Below are positions 499 through 23,773 of a DNA stretch of 28,442 nucleotides, in pieces. This DNA is from a virus. The notes beneath the pieces are model-generated. The model made no database searches. It saw only the letters and a program-made list of their open reading frames with translations, and was not told where the DNA came from. The stretch spans positions 1 through 28,442 of IMG/VR virus record IMGVR_UViG_3300042509_001946. One strand, written 5' to 3'. A program made the position numbers and the translations under genes. The first letter of the stretch is position 1; each line of letters opens with the position of its first letter.

Positions 499-1301
499 CA
501 GTCGAGGTCGTAAGTTATGGCGGTTCGATTGCCGTCCGTGTCCACGCTTGCCACGATGCGGTTTGCAGCGTCAGCCACCGCATTGCGAATGGTGATGGTC
601 GCCGTCCCGCCGCCGCTGATCTTGCCCGCCGTCGCCGCCGTCACCAGACGCAGCGCCTGCCGAAGCGTCATTCCCGTTTCGATGTCTTCCTGATCCAGCA
701 AATAGGACGAGAACCCTTGCGCCTCCAGCGTCACAGGCGGTGCGAATGAGCCCGACATGGAGCCCGTCGCGTACCGGATCGCCTCGAAGCTTGCGACACC
801 TGCAAACGCGCCCACGATGTTGCCCTTGGCAAGTACAGCGCCAGAGAAGGCGGCGACACCCGCAAACGTGCCAACCGCACCCAGCGCCGCCGTGACGTTG
901 CCCGAGAAGGCCCCGACACCGGCAAACGAACCGATGCCCGACACGACAAGCTGACCCGTGCCGGCGAAAGCTGCAACGCCCGCGAAGGTCGCTGCAAGGT
1001 TGCGGCCCGCAGCGATTGACGCCGTGAACGCTGCAAGCCCGTTGGCCGTCGAATGCGCTGAAATCCCGCCCGCCGTGCGTGGCATCATCCAGCCGCGTGC
1101 GCCATACCCGGCAGGGATAGAGGCGAGTTCGTAGGCCTCTGTTCCGTCTGCCAGTGCGAAGTTGCGCCGCGCGCCGTTGCGGCCCCAATTGGCGCGCGTG
1201 TTGACCTGCGCCGAACCTACGCCAGACGCGTGCGCTGTCGATGTACCGCCAAGCCAGCGGCCCGGCGTCTTGTTCAGGACGCTGTAGTTACCCCAGAGCA
1301 T
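498..1301 (-). CDS. Repeat-containing phage structural protein, 267 aa
   Basis: The start is set at the ATG at 1301, one base after the upstream stop codon, with GGAG about nine bases before it inside the end of the upstream gene. A longer open frame to 1367 would overlap that gene without reason. The middle (about residues 85-180) consists of roughly 20-residue imperfect repeats of the form (I/V)G-(S/T/A)FAGV-(A/G)AF-SG. The C-terminus, with TLRQALRLVTAATAGKISG and DTDGNRTAITYD, resembles a domain I know from many tailed-phage structural proteins near tail genes. The exact role is unknown; a tail or virion surface protein is most likely. Confidence 0.75.
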   Translation of the reverse strand: MLWGNYSVLNKTPGRWLGGTSTAHASGVGSAQVNTRANWGRNGARRNFALADGTEAYELASIPAGYGARGWMMPRTAGGISAHSTANGLAAFTASIAAGRNLAATFAGVAAFAGTGQLVVSGIGSFAGVGAFSGNVTAALGAVGTFAGVAAFSGAVLAKGNIVGAFAGVASFEAIRYATGSMSGSFAPPVTLEAQGFSSYLLDQEDIETGMTLRQALRLVTAATAGKISGGGTATITIRNAVADAANRIVASVDTDGNRTAITYDLD

Positions 1302-15890: not shown

Positions 15891-16109
15891 TCAGGCTTTC
15901 GGCTTTGCCTTTTGCGGCTTGGGAACGGATCGCGCTTCCGTGCGCTTCCCGGCTTGCAGCTTGGCGTCAGCCAGGCCAAGACCTAGAACAGTATTCGCAT
16001 GGCGCGTTACTTCCATTGACCAGCCTAAACGCTTCGCCAGATCGTTGATGGTCTTGCAGGATTGGGCAAGACCACGGATTTCGTCAGCGCGCTGGATCAG
16101 CTCGCTCAT
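15891..16109 (-). CDS. Small hypothetical protein, 72 aa
   Basis: The N-terminal 45 residues contain INDLAKRLGWSMEVTRHANTV, a helix-turn-helix-like spacing, and the C-terminal third is Lys/Pro/Ala-rich and basic (ending PKPQKAKPKA). It is joined to the Cro-like gene by an ATGA overlap. It is probably a DNA-binding early protein, but the family is not recognised. Confidence 0.6.
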   Translation of the reverse strand: MSELIQRADEIRGLAQSCKTINDLAKRLGWSMEVTRHANTVLGLGLADAKLQAGKRTEARSVPKPQKAKPKA

Positions 16110-16336
16110 GCGCTTACTTTGCGCTTCGGCCGCATGAAAATGTCCGGGCGCATGTCATAAGGCGGGACGCCTGTCGCATCCGACACCTTGGCGACCCATT
16201 TTGCAGGAACCGTCCGCCTCTGCCGCCAGACATAGATCATGTCCGGGGTTGTGCCGATGTCCGCTGCAAGCTGCTGCGGATTGCCTAGGGCGCGTGCGAA
16301 TGTCTTCTCATCCATACGCGACGTCTGCCACAACAT
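16106..16336 (-). CDS. Cro/YdaS-like helix-turn-helix regulator, 76 aa
   Basis: The region LGNPQQLAADIGTTPDMIYVWRQR, ending in PYDMRPDIF, follows the Cro/YdaS pattern, in which a helix-turn-helix is followed by a conserved (L/M)RPDIF end. It is the first gene of the leftward early module and diverges from the ERF gene, the position expected of a phage switch regulator. Three starts are possible: GTG 16351, ATG 16336 (AGGTGG 11 bases upstream, chosen) and ATG 16315. ATGATAG repeats just upstream are candidate binding sites. Confidence 0.75.
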   Translation of the reverse strand: MLWQTSRMDEKTFARALGNPQQLAADIGTTPDMIYVWRQRRTVPAKWVAKVSDATGVPPYDMRPDIFMRPKRKVSA

Positions 16337-16355
16337 CGGGTGCGTGTCCACCTAA

Positions 16356-16415
16356 ATGATAGCTTGCGCAATGATAGATGGCGTGGCATAGGATGGGCAC
16401 AAAAGGAGCCCAGCG
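16356..16415. promoter_or_regulatory. Divergent promoter/operator between Cro-like and ERF genes
   Basis: ATGATAG occurs at 16356-16362 and 16371-16377, 15 bp apart, flanking a palindromic TTGCGCAA. The right part, CTTGCG (16363-16368), two bases, ATGATAGAT (16371-16379), three bases, GTG (16383-16385), recurs before the gene at 18663. TTGCGC with CATAGG 17 bases on is a weak rightward promoter candidate. AAAAGGAG precedes the ERF start. Confidence 0.55.
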
Positions 16416-17147
16416 ATGACAGACACGATTGCCCTACCCGCAGTTTACCAAGCAATTGCCGCCGTGATGCAGGACGTGGGGAGGGAGGGCATTGCGAAAG
16501 GACGGCGCAATCAGCAACAAGGCTACGCCTTCCGTGGCATTGATGATGTCTACAACGCTCTGGCGCCTCTGCTTGCGCGGCATCACCTGATCATCGTTCC
16601 CCGAGTCCTGACGCGCGAGAAGACGGAACAGACCACACAGAAAGGCGGCATCCTGTTCTATGTCGTCGTGCAAGTCGAGTTTGACATTGTGTGCGCTTCC
16701 GATGGGTCAAAGATTACCGCCTGCACTTGGGGCGAAGCGATGGACAGCGCCGACAAGGCCACCAACAAGGCCATGAGCGCGGCTTATAAATACATGGCAA
16801 TGCAGACGTTCTGCATCCCGACCGAAGGCGATAATGACGCCGACGCATCCCACTACGAAGTTCGCAGGGAAGCCGCTCCCTTGCATACCCCAGCGCCAGC
16901 GCAGGTACAGACCATGAGCAAGGGCGATGCACGCGCAGACTATGGCGTGATGGTCGAGGAAATGCGCCGCATCACATCAAGCCAGGAACTCAAGGAATGG
17001 GGCAAGATGAACGCCGAACGCGTCAAGCTCCAGCCGAAAGACTGGCAGGCAGAAATCCGCAAGTCCTACACGGAACTGATGGAAGGACTTCAACACAACG
17101 AGCGCACAAGCGCTGAAGCAGAAGAGGCGTTTGCAGATGCAAGGTAA
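16416..17147 (+). CDS. erf: ERF-family single-strand annealing protein, 243 aa
   Basis: Recombinase that anneals complementary single strands, used by phages for recombination and genome circularisation. The ERF core is visible: YAFRGIDDVYNALAPLLARH (37-56), VVVQVEFDIVCASDGSKI (83-100), and the signature GEAMDSADKATNKAMSAAYK (106-125). The C-terminal ~90 residues are a variable helical tail. It is the first gene of the rightward module with an excellent ribosome binding site. The 3' end overlaps the next gene by 11 bases; no partner exonuclease of the lambda type is seen. Confidence 0.93.
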   Translation: MTDTIALPAVYQAIAAVMQDVGREGIAKGRRNQQQGYAFRGIDDVYNALAPLLARHHLIIVPRVLTREKTEQTTQKGGILFYVVVQVEFDIVCASDGSKITACTWGEAMDSADKATNKAMSAAYKYMAMQTFCIPTEGDNDADASHYEVRREAAPLHTPAPAQVQTMSKGDARADYGVMVEEMRRITSSQELKEWGKMNAERVKLQPKDWQAEIRKSYTELMEGLQHNERTSAEAEEAFADAR

Positions 17148-17844
17148 TATCGGACACAACAAGGCCGACGACGTCGAAGCCTATCGGGAGATGCTGGCGC
17201 GCTTCAAAGCGGATGCCGACACCGTCACGGAGATAACTGAAGCGAATGCGCAATTCGTCCGCGATCATGTCGGTTATGGCGGCAAGCTGGCGAAGGAAAT
17301 CGACGCCACGCGCGACGACAAGAAGCGCCCGCACCTTGAGGCTGGCCGGCAGATCGATGGCGCATACAAGCCGCTGATCGAGGAATGCGACAAGATCATT
17401 AAGGGCCTGAAACAGAAGCTCGCCGCATTCTTGGACGCCCGCGAACGCGAAGCCAAGCGCATCGCGGAGGAAGCCCGGCGCAAGCTGGAGGAAGCCGAAC
17501 GCCTTGCCGCCAAGGCTGCTGAGGAACCGGAGGAAGACCCGTTCCTTGCCGCCACCGCGCCGACCGTGGACGTGAAGGCTGCGCACGTCGAGGCGAAGAT
17601 TGCCGAGGGCCAGGCGCTTGCCGCTTCGCGCGTATCTTCTGCCGCTGGCGGGTTTGCTGCAACGTCGCTTAAGACGAAGCGCAGCGCCAAGGTTACGCAC
17701 TATGCCACGCTGATAGCGCACTACGCCGGGCGCAACGAAATGAAAGAGTTAGCGCTCAAGTTGGCAAACGCGGACATCAGGCACGCCAAGGGCGAGGACA
17801 TCGAGATCCCCGGCGTTGAGATTGTCGAGGAACGGGTTCTCTGA
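17137..17844 (+). CDS. Coiled-coil protein encoded with ERF, 235 aa
   Basis: The start at 17137 overlaps the ERF stop and has GAAGAGG upstream; a TTG two codons earlier is possible. A long helical region (about 20-150), very rich in Lys, Glu, Arg and Ala, includes an almost continuous coiled coil (KRIAEEARRKLEEAERLAAKA) and then an acidic break (EEPEEDPF). The last ~60 residues (AKVTHYATLIAHYA onward) look like a small folded domain. Genes of this type often sit beside ERF or RecT genes; an accessory recombination role is inferred. No catalytic motif was seen. Confidence 0.7.
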   Translation: MQGNIGHNKADDVEAYREMLARFKADADTVTEITEANAQFVRDHVGYGGKLAKEIDATRDDKKRPHLEAGRQIDGAYKPLIEECDKIIKGLKQKLAAFLDAREREAKRIAEEARRKLEEAERLAAKAAEEPEEDPFLAATAPTVDVKAAHVEAKIAEGQALAASRVSSAAGGFAATSLKTKRSAKVTHYATLIAHYAGRNEMKELALKLANADIRHAKGEDIEIPGVEIVEERVL

Positions 17845-18242
17845 TGGGTCGCGCGCTTCTGGTATTGTGGAACGATGCGACACGCGCCAAGGCGATCGAC
17901 TGGATACGTCGAGCGCCGATGGAAACGCGCGTCACGTTCCAAGGCCCGAAGCGCACATTGCCTCAAAACGACAGACTGCACGCAATGATCACAGACGTTC
18001 AACAGCAAATGCTCTGGCACGGGCAACGCTTGTCGCTCGCTGATTGGAAGCTGGTTTTCATGGCTGCGCTGAAGCAGGAAATGCGCATTGTGCCGAACAT
18101 CGAAGGCACGGGCTTCGTGCAGCTTGGCAGATCCACAGCGAACCTATCGACGCAGGAAATGTCGGACCTGTTTGAGATCATCGAGGCATTTGGCGCACAG
18201 CACGGCATCAAGTTTCACGCGCCAGAGCCTGCCGATGCCTGA
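17844..18242 (+). CDS. ninB: NinB-family recombination protein, 132 aa
   Basis: NinB (Orf) of lambda binds single-stranded DNA and replaces RecFOR in phage recombination. The family pattern is evident: AIDWIRRAP, VTFQGPKRTLPQNDRLHAMI (residues about 31-50), LADWKLVFMAALKQEM and the late RSTANLSTQEMSDLFEIIEA. The length matches lambda Orf (146) closely. The ATG overlaps the upstream stop (TGATG). Together with ERF it forms a complete annealing-type recombination set. Confidence 0.9.
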   Translation: MGRALLVLWNDATRAKAIDWIRRAPMETRVTFQGPKRTLPQNDRLHAMITDVQQQMLWHGQRLSLADWKLVFMAALKQEMRIVPNIEGTGFVQLGRSTANLSTQEMSDLFEIIEAFGAQHGIKFHAPEPADA

Positions 18243-18588
18243 CCTCCCGAAGCCAGAGCGGCGCCGCAGCTTCACAGCCAAGCAGCGGAACATGATTGCC
18301 AACCGCCAGGAATGGCGCTGCAACGTCTGCAAGTGCGATCTGTTCGGGATAGCTTTCGACATTGACCACATCCAGCGCCTCGATGCGCTAGGCAAGCACG
18401 AGCCCGACAACTGGCAGGCGCTTTGCGTTCCGTGCCACGCCATCAAGACGAAGGTGGATAACCGCGAGGCCAAAAAGGGCCGCAGAATACGGCAGGAGAA
18501 CAAGCCTCGCGTCAAGAAAGCCATTCCCAGCCGAGGCTTCTCTACCACCCTGCGCCGCAGGATGGACGGGACGACGGAGCGAAAATAA
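18235..18588 (+). CDS. HNH endonuclease, 117 aa
   Basis: The HNH (beta-beta-alpha metal) fold is clear: CNVCKC (29-34), FDIDHIQRLD (41-50, catalytic DH at 44-45), DNWQALCVPCHAIKT (58-72; N59, C64, C67, H68). A basic C-terminal tail follows (RRIRQENKPRVKK). The start at 18235 overlaps ninB by eight bases; the longer open frame inside ninB is spurious. In the nin region of lambdoid phages a nuclease commonly follows NinB, so processing of recombination intermediates is likely; a packaging role is the alternative, since HNH proteins also occur beside terminases. Confidence 0.85.
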   Translation: MPDLPKPERRRSFTAKQRNMIANRQEWRCNVCKCDLFGIAFDIDHIQRLDALGKHEPDNWQALCVPCHAIKTKVDNREAKKGRRIRQENKPRVKKAIPSRGFSTTLRRRMDGTTERK

Positions 18589-18611
18589 TTGCACGCCAGC
18601 CAGAAATACAC

Positions 18612-18656
18612 CTTGCGTTATGATAGATCGTGTGTAGTGTGGGGGCAACAAAGGAG
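18612..18656 (+). promoter_or_regulatory. Promoter/operator and ribosome binding site of the second rightward unit
   Basis: CTTGCG (18612-18617), two bases, ATGATAGAT (18620-18628), three bases, GTG (18632-18634) repeats the element before the ERF gene with identical internal spacing. TATGAT (18619-18624) is a good -10 match but no -35 is evident. AAGGAG at 18651-18656 is the ribosome binding site for the ATG at 18663. Confidence 0.55.
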
Positions 18657-18662
18657 CACGAC

Positions 18663-19022
18663 ATGACTTACTCAGCCGACGAAATCACGCAAATGGCGCT
18701 GACCTTTACGCGCCGGACCAGCGAGGCGCTCGCTGCGCTTGAGCTGCCGTCAAAGACGGACGGCGAGATGTTTGAGGGGATGCTGGACCAAGTCGCCGAC
18801 AACCTGATGGTCTGCGAGCACGCGTGGGATCTGTTCGCCAGCACCGCGCGCATTGAGTTCTTCGGCTCTGACGCGTCCGAGACCGACCGCAAGCGCTGGG
18901 CTCGTCTTGGCTCTGACGCACGCAAGCAGCTCGACCGCTCCTACGCAGCTGAGTGCGAGGCGGATCGGGCAGACTACTACAACGATCTGGCCCGTGACGA
19001 GCGTCTCATGGGTGCAGCATGA
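18663..19022 (+). CDS. Hypothetical protein, 119 aa
   Basis: Start fixed by AAGGAG six bases upstream; an ATG at 18630 lies inside the regulatory region. Soluble, helical and acidic, with an SDASETDRKRWARLGSDARK segment that may be a charged helix-turn. It opens a run of eight or nine small genes linked by ATGA or TGATG overlaps, which suggests co-expression early in infection. No family recognised. Confidence 0.7.
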   Translation: MTYSADEITQMALTFTRRTSEALAALELPSKTDGEMFEGMLDQVADNLMVCEHAWDLFASTARIEFFGSDASETDRKRWARLGSDARKQLDRSYAAECEADRADYYNDLARDERLMGAA

Positions 19023-19231
19023 GCGCCCGCCGCATCATCACCGAATACGTCCACCCGCCGATCCCGTATCGCTGCAACGACTGGCGCGCGACGCGTGAGG
19101 GCGATGACGAGGATTACATTGTCGGCTGGGGCTCGACCGAACAGGACGCCATTGACGATCTGATCGCTGAAGAAGGCGCAGCGCAGGACGAGGCGGAAGC
19201 CCGTGCGGCGCGGAAGGCGGTGTCGAAATGA
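19019..19231 (+). CDS. Hypothetical protein, 70 aa
   Basis: Starts in an ATGA overlap. The N-terminus is aromatic and Pro-rich (YVHPPIPYRCNDWRAT), followed by GWGSTEQDAIDDLIAEE, which resembles a small beta-beta-helix module ending in a charged Ala/Glu/Arg helix. The pattern of a strand, then G-STEQDAI, is typical of small uncharacterised phage proteins. Function unknown. Confidence 0.65.
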   Translation: MSARRIITEYVHPPIPYRCNDWRATREGDDEDYIVGWGSTEQDAIDDLIAEEGAAQDEAEARAARKAVSK

Positions 19232-19455
19232 TGTTTTTTGAGGTCACCGAAGCCGCGCTCGAAAAGATCGCGGGCGAAGCGCCGGCCAAAGAACCCAGCG
19301 ACGGCCCGACCGTCGCCTGGCCCCCGAACTGGTCCGACGATCTGCGGGACACGGTCAACGACATGATCCAGCAGGCATTCAACGAAGGCCACACCCGCGC
19401 CTGCTGGGAGCTTGGGCAGATCGCAGACAAAGCATTGAAGACGGTGACGGAATGA
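19228..19455 (+). CDS. Hypothetical protein, 75 aa
   Basis: ATGA overlaps on both sides. Acidic, with WPPNWSDDLRDTVNDMIQQA followed by a Cys/Trp-containing helix (ACWELGQIADKALK). Looks like two helices with a proline-rich entry. No family recognised. Confidence 0.62.
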   Translation: MMFFEVTEAALEKIAGEAPAKEPSDGPTVAWPPNWSDDLRDTVNDMIQQAFNEGHTRACWELGQIADKALKTVTE

Positions 19456-19706
19456 CCGGCCTCGAACCCCTTCACAACAAGCACGACCTGACGTTCGAGC
19501 GTGTCGAGACGCTTCACAGCCTGCTCGATGATGCGGCGAAACGGGTCGGCGAGCAACGTCTGCGCATCAAGCGGCTGGAGGCACTGCTCGCTGACTGCGT
19601 CGAGTTCATCGAGCCCTACAGCGACGTTTACGATGGCGCTTACGGCGAACCCATTCCGAACGCAGCGATGAACCTGCTTTCAGCCATCAATGAGGAAATC
19701 ACATGA
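19452..19706 (+). CDS. Hypothetical coiled-coil protein, 84 aa
   Basis: Residues about 15-50 form an amphipathic helix (LHSLLDDAAKRVGEQRLRIK), and the rest is acidic and Tyr-rich. ATGA overlap upstream and downstream. No catalytic residues stand out; function unknown. Confidence 0.62.
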   Translation: MTGLEPLHNKHDLTFERVETLHSLLDDAAKRVGEQRLRIKRLEALLADCVEFIEPYSDVYDGAYGEPIPNAAMNLLSAINEEIT

Positions 19707-19963
19707 TCGCCCACGTCGAGATGCTTCTCGCAAACCGCCAGCGCCATGAAGACAAGGCCGCTGTCAGGTACACAACCCTAGAGGGTGTCGTCGCTGAGTT
19801 CACCGCTCGCATGGAACGGATCGGCCAGCTTGAGGATCGCGTTGCGCGCTGCACTTGCCAGCCCGCACCTGAGTTCACCATCGACACGCGCCGCGACAAG
19901 CCGCTGCACGCCATGTTCATCGCTCGCAGGTTTCAGCGCATGGCTGGGGAGGATGCGCGGTGA
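19703..19963 (+). CDS. Hypothetical protein, 86 aa
   Basis: Helical N-terminal half, then CTCQPAPEF with two closely spaced cysteines, then a basic C-terminus (RRDKPLHAMFIARRFQRM). Starts in an ATGA overlap and ends overlapping the next start. Function unknown. Confidence 0.62.
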   Translation: MIAHVEMLLANRQRHEDKAAVRYTTLEGVVAEFTARMERIGQLEDRVARCTCQPAPEFTIDTRRDKPLHAMFIARRFQRMAGEDAR

Positions 19964-20166
19964 TGGCAATCAAGCTTCAACTTCGTCTGCAAGATGCGCT
20001 GCAAGACTTGCAGGAATTTCGCGACAACCTCGACCCAGATGAACGCAAGCGAATTCGCGACGTGGACATGTCCATTCGCGCCGTCGAAGACGCCATCGAG
20101 TTGCACAAGGCCCTTGAGCTGGCCGCGTCTCCGATGCGCGAGCTTTTGTACTACTCGCAGGATTAG
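19963..20166 (+). CDS. Hypothetical helical protein, 67 aa
   Basis: ATG at 19963 overlaps the upstream TGA (TGATG); a GTG three bases earlier is an equivalent alternative. Strongly charged two-helix protein (LRLQDALQDLQEFRDNLDP, then a second helix). Function unknown. Confidence 0.6.
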   Translation: MAIKLQLRLQDALQDLQEFRDNLDPDERKRIRDVDMSIRAVEDAIELHKALELAASPMRELLYYSQD

Positions 20167-20171
20167 CGCGC

Positions 20172-20288
20172 ATGAGCAACGTGATCGAATTTCCCACACA
20201 GCACGCACGAGACGCAGCCCAGCGCATAGGCGCAAGCGCCAGACGGTCAACGTGGTGCGCAGCACATGCGCAAAGCTGCGGAGGGTGA
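20172..20288 (+). CDS. 38-residue protein, possible
   Basis: An intact small frame fills the gap between two genes. It begins MSNVIEFP, and the gene at 20538 begins MSNVIPLRP, the same opening in two small neighbours. Basic and Ala-rich with two late cysteines. The ribosome binding site is weak (GCGCGC only), so expression is less certain than for the overlapping genes. Confidence 0.45.
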   Translation: MSNVIEFPTQHARDAAQRIGASARRSTWCAAHAQSCGG

Positions 20289-20292
20289 TCTA

Positions 20293-20541
20293 ATGGATGA
20301 CCTGCCAAACCTTCGCGTTGCCATTTCCCCGCTCAGCAACCGCATTTTTGCGGGCTACTCGCGCGCCGTGAAGGGCAAGCCCGGCCTGATGAACTGGACC
20401 CGCAAGCAGGACGTCACAGCGCAAGCGGTTGACGCGGTCCTTCGTCATCTTCTCGACGGCAAAAAACAAGCGCGATGGGAATTTTTGAACGATGAAGACA
20501 CGCTTGTCGTCACCATCAAGCGTGGAGCGGCGAAGCCATGA
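20293..20541 (+). CDS. Small phage protein, DUF7446-like, 82 aa
   Basis: Start at 20293 with GGAGGG eight bases upstream. The sequence LRVAISPLSNRIFAGYSR, followed by KQDVTAQAVDAVLRHLLD and a C-terminal strand, resembles the DUF7446 family of small phage proteins, as far as I can recall the pattern. The role of that family is unknown. Confidence 0.68.
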   Translation: MDDLPNLRVAISPLSNRIFAGYSRAVKGKPGLMNWTRKQDVTAQAVDAVLRHLLDGKKQARWEFLNDEDTLVVTIKRGAAKP

Positions 20542-20720
20542 GCAACGTAATCCCCCTCCGCCCCCACGCGCCCATCGCCCTGCCAGACGACACCATCCGC
20601 GCGGACTGCGAACGCCTGATGCGCCGGCTGGTGCGTGACGGCCGCACGCCTGAACGCGAGATGAGATTGTTGGCCGATTTGCTCGACCACATCATTGTGC
20701 GGGTGGAGGAGCGCCAGTGA
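20538..20720 (+). CDS. Small hypothetical protein, 60 aa
   Basis: ATGA overlap upstream, GTGA overlap with the cytosine methyltransferase downstream. A Pro-rich N-terminus (MSNVIPLRPHAPIALPDD) is followed by two charged helices. Translational coupling suggests joint expression with the methyltransferase. Function unknown. Confidence 0.65.
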   Translation: MSNVIPLRPHAPIALPDDTIRADCERLMRRLVRDGRTPEREMRLLADLLDHIIVRVEERQ

Positions 20721-21949
20721 GATACGGCTCCGTCTGCTCTGGCATCGAAGCCGCGACGGTCGCCTGGCACGGCCTCGGCTGGACGCCGTCATTCTTCAGC
20801 GAAATCGACAAATTCCCGCGCGCCGTGCTGGCCGCTCATTATCCGAAGGTTCCGCTACATGGCGACTTCACGTCGATCAAAGCAGGCGAGTACGATCCAA
20901 TCGACCTTCTGGTCGGAGGAACACCTTGCCAGTCTTTCAGTGTCGCCGGCCTCAGAGGCGGACTGGCTGACGGGCGTGGTAACCTGGCGCTTGAATATCT
21001 TAAGCTGGCTCAACGCCTTGGCCCCAAGTGGCTGGTTTGGGAGAACGTCCCCGGCGTCCTGTCGTCCAATGGAGGACGGGACTTTGGTTCCATCCTCGGG
21101 GGCCTGGTCGAACTCGGGTATGGGTTCGCCTACCGAGTGCTTGACGCTCAGTTCTTCGGAGTACCGCAGCGCCGCCGCCGTGTGTTCGTTGTCGGATATC
21201 TTGGAGACTGGCGACGTGCCGCAGCGGTTCTTTTTGAGCGCCACAGCCTGCAAGGGCATTCTCCGCCGCGCCGGGAAGCGGGGCAAAGAGCTGCCCCCAC
21301 AATTAGCGCACGCACTGAGGGCGGCGGCGGCAAAGACGCCCAAGACGCCAGATTAGTCGGCTGGCCCGCAGATGTCGCGCCTACGCTCAATGCAGCCTTT
21401 GGCGACAAGCAGGGGCTTGAAGACCAGCACGCCTTGAATGGGGGGGGGCTTTTCGTTCCATCCCAAAGGTGCGGCTTCGATGTAGCTCACGCTCTCCGCG
21501 CCGATGGCTTTGACGCCAGCGAGGATGGAACGGGCAGGGGCACGCCTCTGGTTGCCATCCCGCACGTTGACATCATGCCGACAATGCAAAACGGCGCCGA
21601 CACGCCGGCCGGCCACAATGCGCGATCAGGCGATACAAAGGACGCTTACATCGTCCCCATTGCCTTCAACGCCAGGCAAGACCCGACACACGGCCCTGTC
21701 GCTGATCCGCTTGGCACGAAAGACACCGGACACGGCTTCCTGCGCGGCTCTGCCGTCCGCCGCCTCACTCCTCGAGAATGCGAGCGCCTCCAAGGCTTCC
21801 CTGACGACTACACGCTGATCAGTCATCGCGGAAAGCCCGCCGCCGACGGCCCCCGCTACAAGGCGCTTGGGAACTCAATGGCCGTGCCCGTCATGCGCTG
21901 GATCGGTGAGCGCATCCAGATGGTCGAAGCATTGCAGGTAGCAGCATGA
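20717..21949 (+). CDS. dcm: C5-cytosine DNA methyltransferase, 410 aa
   Basis: Transfers methyl from S-adenosylmethionine to carbon 5 of cytosine. Motif I GSVCSGIEAATVAW (4-17), motif IV TPCQSFS with catalytic C71, motif VI ENVPG (109-113), motif VIII QRRRRVF (151-157), a long target-recognition region (about 170-350), motif IX RLTPRECERLQGFPDDY and motif X GNSMAVPV are all present, so the enzyme looks complete. GTG start in a GTGA overlap. A run of nine G (21440-21448) lies in the recognition region. No partner endonuclease is visible, so it is an orphan, probably for evading host restriction. Confidence 0.95.
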   Translation: MRYGSVCSGIEAATVAWHGLGWTPSFFSEIDKFPRAVLAAHYPKVPLHGDFTSIKAGEYDPIDLLVGGTPCQSFSVAGLRGGLADGRGNLALEYLKLAQRLGPKWLVWENVPGVLSSNGGRDFGSILGGLVELGYGFAYRVLDAQFFGVPQRRRRVFVVGYLGDWRRAAAVLFERHSLQGHSPPRREAGQRAAPTISARTEGGGGKDAQDARLVGWPADVAPTLNAAFGDKQGLEDQHALNGGGLFVPSQRCGFDVAHALRADGFDASEDGTGRGTPLVAIPHVDIMPTMQNGADTPAGHNARSGDTKDAYIVPIAFNARQDPTHGPVADPLGTKDTGHGFLRGSAVRRLTPRECERLQGFPDDYTLISHRGKPAADGPRYKALGNSMAVPVMRWIGERIQMVEALQVAA

Positions 21950-22065
21950 CCCCCGACGAAATCGACCGCCTCTATGAAAGCCTGAGGCTCGCCGCGCCGA
22001 TGGCTGCTGTGGGCGTGGTGATGTTCCTGGCGGTGTGGCTCTGGCCTGTGAGGAGGAAACCGTGA
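21946..22065 (+). CDS. 39-residue single-pass membrane microprotein
   Basis: ATGA overlap with the methyltransferase and GTGA overlap with the Ea22-like gene. A charged N-terminal helix (DEIDRLYESLRL) is followed by one membrane segment and a basic end carrying WLWPVRR. The same C-terminal design closes the microprotein at 9566-9655. Function unknown. Confidence 0.65.
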   Translation: MTPDEIDRLYESLRLAAPMAAVGVVMFLAVWLWPVRRKP

Positions 22066-22445
22066 GTGCAAGTGAAGTGATCGCGCGCCTGCGAGAGTTG
22101 CGAGCCAAGGCGACGAAAAGCGAATGGCTCGCAATTAAGTCCCCTCGCTACAATCACTGGAAAATTGGCGATGGTCGATCCGTCTATTTCGACGTCTGCA
22201 ACTTCATCAACATAGAGCATTTTGCCAAATGGGGCACGTCCGGCACGGCTGAAGACAATGCCAAATACACCGCCGCCGCGATGAACTCGCTTGAGAGTTT
22301 GTTGGCGTGTGCGGAGGCTTTGGCTGAAATCGCCACTTGGGATGCGACGACGGACAGTTGGTATCGCCACCATCAAATGGTGCAGGCCAAAGCCCGCTCC
22401 GCACTTCAGGCGCTTGGAAAAACAACAGGAGAAACCAATGCTTGA
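22062..22445 (+). CDS. Ea22-like phage protein, 127 aa
   Basis: GTG start with GAGGAGG upstream, overlapping the microprotein stop. The design, with VIARLRELRAKAT..EW at the N-terminus, DNAKYTAAAMNSLESLLACAEA in the middle and a C-terminal helix (AKARSALQAL), matches ead/Ea22-like early phage proteins in lambdoid genomes, whose function is not established. Length is normal for a short member. Confidence 0.68.
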   Translation: MSASEVIARLRELRAKATKSEWLAIKSPRYNHWKIGDGRSVYFDVCNFINIEHFAKWGTSGTAEDNAKYTAAAMNSLESLLACAEALAEIATWDATTDSWYRHHQMVQAKARSALQALGKTTGETNA

Positions 22446-23181
22446 TTTCACGCTACTGGAAAAACTCGGGCCGCTCAAGAATGGCGGTCACTCAGGCCCG
22501 ACTGAGGGTGCTTGCGTGATGGAGGCTGTGGCCTACGTCGCTGGCGAGAAGTGGTCCGACCATCCCGAATGCGTTTCGCCTGTCATCGGCGCTTTCCTGC
22601 GCTCGTGGAATGACGGCCTGCCGACCGATGCGGATCGTGACCGGCTCTTGAAACCGCTGATCCCGAAGATCATCAACACGCGCTCGACGCAAGCCGTCGA
22701 AGAGCAGCGCTCATATCTCGCGCTCGACTGGATGATCCGAACCTTCCTGCCCGCATGGCTTCGCCTCGCGAAGATCAACGATCACGCGGACAAAATCGAG
22801 GCGCTGGCGCCCATCGTGGACACGGCGACTGCAACCGCTGCCGCGCCCGTCGTGCGCGCCGCAAACGAAGCGGCTTCGAAAGCGGGGGCCGCTGCGAGGG
22901 ACGCTGCGAGGGCCGCTGCGTGGGACGCTGCGAGGGACGCTGCGAGGGCCGCTGCGTGGGACGCTGCGTGGGACGCTGCGTGGGCCGCTGCGGGGGCCGC
23001 TGCGAGGGCCGCTGCGGGGGCCGCTGCGTGGGACGCTGCGTGGGCCGCTGCGGGGGACGCTGCGAGGGCCGCTGCGTGGGACGCTCTCAACGCCACCCGC
23101 GACCAGTTGCAGCTATCAGCGGTGGGTCTCGTTGAGCGGATGGCAGCACTTCAGGCGCTGGCGGAAGGGGATGCCTCGTGA
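22438..23181 (+). CDS. Conserved protein with C-terminal AAW/AAR repeat helix, 247 aa
   Basis: Start at 22438 (CAGGAG upstream). The N-terminal ~110 residues (GACVMEAVAYVAGE, SDHPECVSPVIGAFLRSWND, RLLKPLIPKIINTR, then an LDWMIRTFLPAWLRLA block) match an uncharacterised domain I know from phages and actinobacteria. Residues 151-214 are sixteen four-residue units (D/A)-A-A-(R/W/G), encoded by a 12-bp tandem repeat. The last ~30 residues form a normal helix. Similar Ala-rich repeats follow this domain elsewhere, so the array is probably functional rather than accidental. Function unknown. Confidence 0.8.
   Translation: MLDFTLLEKLGPLKNGGHSGPTEGACVMEAVAYVAGEKWSDHPECVSPVIGAFLRSWNDGLPTDADRDRLLKPLIPKIINTRSTQAVEEQRSYLALDWMIRTFLPAWLRLAKINDHADKIEALAPIVDTATATAAAPVVRAANEAASKAGAAARDAARAAAWDAARDAARAAAWDAAWDAAWAAAGAAARAAAGAAAWDAAWAAAGDAARAAAWDALNATRDQLQLSAVGLVERMAALQALAEGDAS
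22888..23079 (+). repeat. 12-bp tandem repeat, 16 copies
   Basis: Sixteen in-frame units of the form G(A/C)C GCT GCG (A/T/G)GG, followed by a degraded seventeenth (23080-23091). Only two positions in the unit vary: the second base of codon 1 (Asp or Ala) and the first base of codon 4 (Arg, Trp or Gly). All other bases are identical across copies. Confidence 0.95.
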
Positions 23182-23486
23182 CTGAACTAGACCCCCGCGC
23201 GCTGGAGAAGGCCGCAAGAGCGCTTAGCGAGCTTCACATTGAGGCCAGCTTGGAGAATGGCTCCGGCTGGAGGGTGGCTGCACATCGTGGAGCCCGCGCC
23301 GCCGTCACCGCGTATCTCGACGCGATGCCCCCGCCCGTATCGCCAGAGCTTATTGCCGGGCTCAACAAGCTGGCAACGTACCTCACCGAACAGGGCGAAT
23401 ACGAAGCGGTCGATCTTATCGACACGGTCGTTGCGCGGCTGACGCCTCTCCCCGCCCCTCCAGCAGCACAGGACCCCCGCCCATGA
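23178..23486 (+). CDS. Hypothetical protein, 102 aa
   Basis: GTG start in a GTGA overlap with the repeat protein. Helical, with RALEKAARALSELHIEAS and a central HRGARAAVTAYLDAMPPP; the ALEKAARAL pattern is frequent in small phage proteins of this region. Ends in a Pro/Ala-rich tail. Function unknown. Confidence 0.66.
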   Translation: MTELDPRALEKAARALSELHIEASLENGSGWRVAAHRGARAAVTAYLDAMPPPVSPELIAGLNKLATYLTEQGEYEAVDLIDTVVARLTPLPAPPAAQDPRP

Positions 23487-23773
23487 GCACGACGAGAGCG
23501 CTTGAGCACGCAATCCAGCACGTCAAGAACGGCTCGACTATAGAGCTGACAACCGACGATGTGTTGAGCATGTGGGGGCTGGTGCGTGTTGCCCGCCTCT
23601 CCGAGCTGGAGCGGGAGAATGCGAGGATGCGCGCCGCTCTTGAGGACATCGCCAAGCAGGTTCCGGCCAAAGACATGGACGAAGACTATTACGAAGCCGC
23701 AGACTTTGAAGACGGTTACGACCGCTGCGTTTTTCAAGCCCGCGCAGCACTAGCGGGGAGCGTGGAGAAGTGA
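23483..23773 (+). CDS. Hypothetical coiled-coil protein, 96 aa
   Basis: ATGA overlap upstream. A Leu/Glu/Arg-rich helix (ARLSELERENARMRAALEDI) is followed by an acidic Tyr-rich stretch (DEDYYEAADFEDGYD). It is the last gene of the rightward module; its stop is two bases from the stop of a convergent gene and no terminator is seen. Function unknown. Confidence 0.65.
   Translation: MSTTRALEHAIQHVKNGSTIELTTDDVLSMWGLVRVARLSELERENARMRAALEDIAKQVPAKDMDEDYYEAADFEDGYDRCVFQARAALAGSVEK

Follow-up and report, generated by a model that had tools for sequence, protein, structure and literature searches.

The window (the whole stretch of 28,442 nucleotides analysed here, IMG/VR virus record IMGVR_UViG_3300042509_001946) carries a short leftward gene, cro, which is divergent from a rightward unit that begins with an ERF recombinase gene (Table 1). 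The 69-aa product of cro matched PF15943 with 32.8 bits (cut-off 30), PHROG 35 (transcriptional repressor) and the Cro protein of PDB 3bd1 (E 1.6e-06). By these three matches it belongs to the Cro/YdaS family, as the first-pass annotation had proposed when it called the divergent gene Cro-like. The protein also matched PDB 2hin, annotated as Repressor protein/Gp39 (E 0.0033). No relative was found in bacterial genomes in the Cro search. The leftward unit continues after cro with genes for a helicase, a DNA methyltransferase, a replication-initiation-like protein, the terminase and the portal.

The second rightward unit consists of B1, further small genes and a C5 cytosine methylase gene (20717-21949). 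The latter has 86% DNA identity over 555 bp to the gene of Caulobacter phage DMCA and also resembles that of Pseudanabaena phage Pan4, and this likeness suggests that exchange may have been recent. One small protein of the window matched the DnaA C-terminal DNA-binding domain (PF08299, E 3.9e-20), and another matched the VRR-NUC nuclease domain.

Table 1. Features of the control region in the window, and repeats found in other immunity types.
Feature	Position	Strand	Remarks
Small conserved gene beside cro	15891..16109	-	anchor for finding other immunity types
cro, Cro/YdaS-family regulator, 69 aa	16106..16315	-	heads leftward unit; proposed binder of A and B; PF15943, PHROG 35, PDB 3bd1
Weak candidate cro promoter, TGGACA, 17 bp, CAGACG	16322..16350	-	read from sequence, putative
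Extra ATGATAG (AWGATAG in relatives)	16356..16362	+	15 bp upstream of the copy within element A
Element A, CTTGCG CA ATGATAGAT GGC GTG	16363..16385	+	precedes ERF unit; OR-like position, divergent from cro; conserved in relatives
Candidate -35, promoter A, TTGCGC	16364..16369	+	17-bp spacer; putative; single-site score not significant
Putative operator core ATGATAGA in spacer of promoter A	16371..16378	+	predicted function
Candidate -10, promoter A, CATAGG	16387..16392	+	CATAGT or CATGGT in relatives; putative
Shine-Dalgarno sequence of ERF, AAGGAG	16403..16408	+	read from sequence
Unit A: ERF recombinase, exonuclease-like, NinB, HNH	16416..18588	+	in the slot of the cI-like XRE gene of relatives
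Element B, CTTGCG TT ATGATAGAT CGT GTG	18612..18634	+	precedes small-gene unit; OL/PL-like position; conserved in relatives
Candidate -35, promoter B, TTGCGT	18613..18618	+	16-bp spacer; putative
Putative operator core ATGATAGA in spacer of promoter B	18620..18627	+	predicted function
Candidate -10, promoter B, TAGTGT	18635..18640	+	putative
Shine-Dalgarno sequence of B1, AAAGGAG	18650..18656	+	read from sequence
Unit B: B1, further small genes, C5 methylase	18663..23773	+	
Repeat of L064/L065, TTGCAATnTGCAA			Cro 42% identical to that of the window
Repeat of L063/L068/L047, GTGCACCTAGTGCAC			
Repeat of L066, AATACGttctGTATT-like site			
Repeat of L241, TGTTCGCnnnnnGCTAACw			
Repeat of L245, GTCAGCnATGTGCTGAC-like site			
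Repeat of L249, TGCGAAAnTTCGC			

Each rightward unit is preceded by one copy of a 23-bp element, A and B. A pattern scan of the window with CTTGCGnnATGATAGATnnnGTG gave exact matches at these two places only. There was no third copy in the window within 3 mismatches, and 100 dinucleotide shuffles gave 0 matches. The pattern, the coordinates of both copies and the additional ATGATAG upstream of A were thus exactly as first described. Two figures had to be corrected. A and B are identical at 19 of 23 bases and not at 18, and the Shine-Dalgarno sequences, which had been placed 26-30 bases behind the elements, start 16-18 bases past the element end; the start codons (16416 and 18663) follow at 28-30 bases. 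The likeness of A and B extends well beyond the element, as an alignment of the two starts at a shared AAA and reaches the Shine-Dalgarno sequence, about 55-60 bp in all (0 of 1000 shuffles). Very probably the two are copies of a single early-gene control site of this bacterial virus.

The idea of one regulator for both units was to count as refuted if related phages had no such element at the corresponding positions. We observed both copies in every relative that spans both places, and whole-record searches of the window-type relatives found no other sites with 0-1 mismatch. A first pattern scan of viral contigs had returned many unrelated matches, and only those with matching context were counted. 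The relatives belong to phages of Alphaproteobacteria, and the group is apparently undescribed. The loci for alignment of the divergent region were fetched via the Cro protein and therefore carry no motif bias; CTTGC, TGATAG and the upstream GATAG were kept in 13/13 aligned rows, which are not all independent. The gap between CTTGC and ATGATAG has two forms there, GCA and AGG, and the downstream bases are variable. At the B sites, part of which were chosen by the motif itself, the gap is GTT, AAT or AGA. The conserved unit is therefore CTTGC-NNN-ATGATAG(A) rather than the full 23 bp, since the gap bases and the GTG tail vary. The third copy of the core in relatives is AWGATAG abutting CTTGC, which makes a 15-bp direct repeat at site A only. 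The distance between A and B ranged from 1919 to 2668 bp in relatives, so that a constant spacing, as a looping model might want, was not seen. In two relatives a degenerate third match, CTAGCCTGATGAAAGA, lies about 1.46 kb past B with no ribosome binding site behind it, and we dropped it.

Some relatives have ERF as the first gene behind A and others have a RecT-like protein, just below the Pfam cut-off; the cassette therefore persists while genes are exchanged behind it. Near ERF homologs in other contexts (L046-L049, L051-L062) the element was absent, as it should be if it goes with the control slot rather than with ERF. Such swapping of first genes behind a constant cassette, together with similarity of A and B that continues through the ribosome binding site, would also suit a promoter and ribosome binding site that work without any regulator, the likeness being due to recent copying of a constitutive early promoter. 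We consider this decidedly improbable, because A and B have diverged in their -10 regions and in the rest of the spacer but have both kept CTTGC and ATGATAG, and a constitutive promoter needs no fixed spacer sequence.

Neither A nor B was called as a rightward promoter in a sigma-70 consensus scan, which also showed no excess over shuffles; the promoter reading therefore rests on comparison. The -35/-10 score of A or B alone was not significant (approximately 15% of shuffles reach it). Further, the downstream promoters of several types have TTGC (as TTGCAA, TTGCGG or TTGCGA) 16-18 bp before a -10-like hexamer, and those of other types have TTGACA or TTGACG. A rough Fisher combination by hand, with 11 types treated as independent, gave p < 1e-3. 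On this reading ATGATAG lies within the spacer, where a bound protein would hinder the polymerase. At the candidate promoter of cro, GACGTCTG (16322-16329, just upstream of the start codon) did not vary among the aligned relatives and is thus conserved to the same degree as the element. It may be the -10 of the cro promoter, part of a leader or an operator.

We located other immunity types via B1 and via the small gene adjoining cro. In most of these relatives a short regulator gene points leftward, an XRE gene of approximately 100 residues (HTH_3/HTH_31) points rightward, and B1 or a similar gene comes next. Each other type has a repeat in the divergent region and again before the next unit (Table 1). 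To compare these, the divergent and the downstream region were scored against each other without gaps in nine phages (six other types and three of the window type, 60 shuffles each). Own-pair scores were 12-18 in all nine phages and above 60/60 shuffles in each, whereas scores between types reached at most 10.5. The element is therefore type-specific and changes together at both places, also in the L064 type, where a homologous Cro (42%) goes with an operator of its own at the same two places. When the two regions are compared, most other types match best in inverted orientation (cro promoter against B1 promoter), whereas the window type matches best in direct orientation, and so its site A is directed towards the rightward unit. 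On reading, a similar arrangement was seen in prophage-like loci of Henriciella, Bradyrhizobium and Sphingomonas, outside the scored set. By the own-pair rule operators can be read from sequence in at least seven immunity types, and this set may be useful for studying how Cro proteins and operators change jointly.

The suggestion that one regulator controls both units is thus supported by the presence of both sites in relatives, by the type-specific pairs of the other types and by the Cro/YdaS nature of the divergent gene. The core has no clear palindrome, unlike the operators of other types, and the cro promoter showed no inverted copy of the element. The core allows an imperfect dyad, CTTGC-N5-GATAG, but there is no strong inverted repeat common to A and B. 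This dyad shares its centre with TTGCAATATGCAA of the L064 type, the type with the homologous Cro. The agreement is no more than a hint, and in the two types the site is placed differently with respect to the promoter.

At both sites the core is asymmetric, points the same way and keeps a fixed distance to the -35-like CTTGC, and the -10 candidates are weak. Activator-dependent early or middle promoters could also look like this. ATGATAG, beside the -35, would then be recognised by an activator of the phage or the host that switches both units on, in the manner of the MotA box in T4. We consider this improbable, as the Cro/YdaS protein is the only regulator-like protein recognised beside the sites, and the operators found at these places in other immunity types are palindromic.

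We therefore favour the reading that A and B are paired early promoter-operator elements through which the Cro-like protein represses both rightward units, and we estimate its probability at approximately 0.68 as a whole. Our confidence is higher for paired early promoter-operators as such and lower for the exact binder. In this cassette CTTGC would be the -35, the operator core ATGATAG would lie in the spacer, and a weak -10 and the ribosome binding site would follow; the whole would be duplicated at the OR-like (divergent) and the OL/PL-like (pre-B1) places of a lambda-type control region. Cro/YdaS from the divergent leftward gene most likely binds A and B, and as it accumulates it would shut off the recombination unit (erf-exo-ninB-hnh) together with the small-gene unit. 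With the extra GATAG, binding at A may be stronger or cooperative, and Cro's own promoter may be limited as well. The asymmetric core, the weak promoter scores and the lack of an inverted element at the cro promoter count against this reading. What began as a repeat in the sequence thereby becomes a control circuit that can be tested in this phage group.

So understood, the locus is a variation on a type of phage switch that is already known. In phage lambda the control region is laid out as OR with PR and PRM, and OL with PL. Judged by their positions, the elements of the window occupy both places of this OR/OL arrangement. The relatives resemble lambda in that two operator-promoter regions flank the control slot, with the slot gene running in the direction of the PL unit and cro opposite. 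The window type differs, as its slot has no cI, A and B are direct copies, not head-to-head promoters, and each of the two places showed a single full element. Stoperators and start-associated sequences of mycobacteriophages occur in many copies, whereas the window has exactly two full copies, both at promoter positions. The likeness to those of cluster K is in their form, namely short asymmetric repeats of fixed orientation near early gene starts (PMC3203893).

The closest comparison in terms of the regulator is CP-933P of E. coli O157:H7, where a Cro gene of the YdaS family, of the same Pfam family as that of the window, is likewise divergent from another unit. YdaS was argued by Jobling to be a Cro (PMC5917428). 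In CP-933P it gives footprints on PRM and PR, represses PRM, PR and PL, and lowers the PL-type promoter approximately 100-fold (PMC8630535). CP-933P has repeated operators over the promoters of the divergent region and a distant PL-like promoter, and we liken the arrangement of A and B to this. However, it has the CI-equivalent PaaR2 and 18-bp palindromic repeats, while in the window no CI-equivalent was recognised, the core is asymmetric and the slot is taken up by recombination genes. The immB regions of N15 and phiKO2 likewise have paired OR and OL operators and, going by the match to PDB 2hin, a Cro of the same broad kind, but the phiKO2 operators are 16-bp near-palindromes, unlike the core of the window (PMC4997575). 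Since phiKO2 Cro binds OR3 only and not OL (PMC4997575), one Cro for both sites is not to be assumed.

The slot between A and B holds erf-exo-ninB-hnh instead of an XRE gene. For HTH_3, the window and two window-type records (41 and 55 kb) gave no match, and a third such record, of 29 kb, gave sub-threshold matches only. There was no S24 repressor match in the window or in any of these three records; viral records may be incomplete, and other window-type records may be fragments. This incompleteness, and the cI-like XRE gene between the two operators of related types, would leave room for A and B as operators of another repressor, a cI-like protein from elsewhere in the phage or from a resident prophage, with Cro at most secondary. 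Given the HTH_3 and S24 results, we consider this highly improbable.

Both elements are also present in the 55-kb record G001 (L278, G001:C1:21500-31500), which has an integrase match downstream of the B unit (G001:23032-23475). No HTH_3 or S24 repressor was found in G001, and no tRNA was found near its integrase. The other window-type records, possibly fragments, had no integrase, and relatives with the cI-like gene mostly have one. A literature search on cI loss found no paper. These observations raise the question of what role a lambda-type switch has once cI is missing from the slot. Under a one-regulator switch cI would be gone, the recombination genes in its slot would be preceded by a copy of the PL-type promoter, and YdaS/Cro alone would govern both early units and possibly even lysogeny. 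Lysogeny under YdaS/Cro alone is conceivable because G001 has an integrase but no recognised cI; as a whole we consider such a switch unlikely.

Further loci without a cI-like gene were also seen. In the relative L233 a short leftward ORF (992-1192, minus strand) is directly divergent from a B-type unit, and three TTTGGG...CCCA-type repeats are located between them. More distant YdaS-type Cro genes, some without an adjoining cI-like gene, are present in L262-L268 and L271-L277, and their divergent regions have repeats of their own, e.g. GTAGG...CCTAC in L272.
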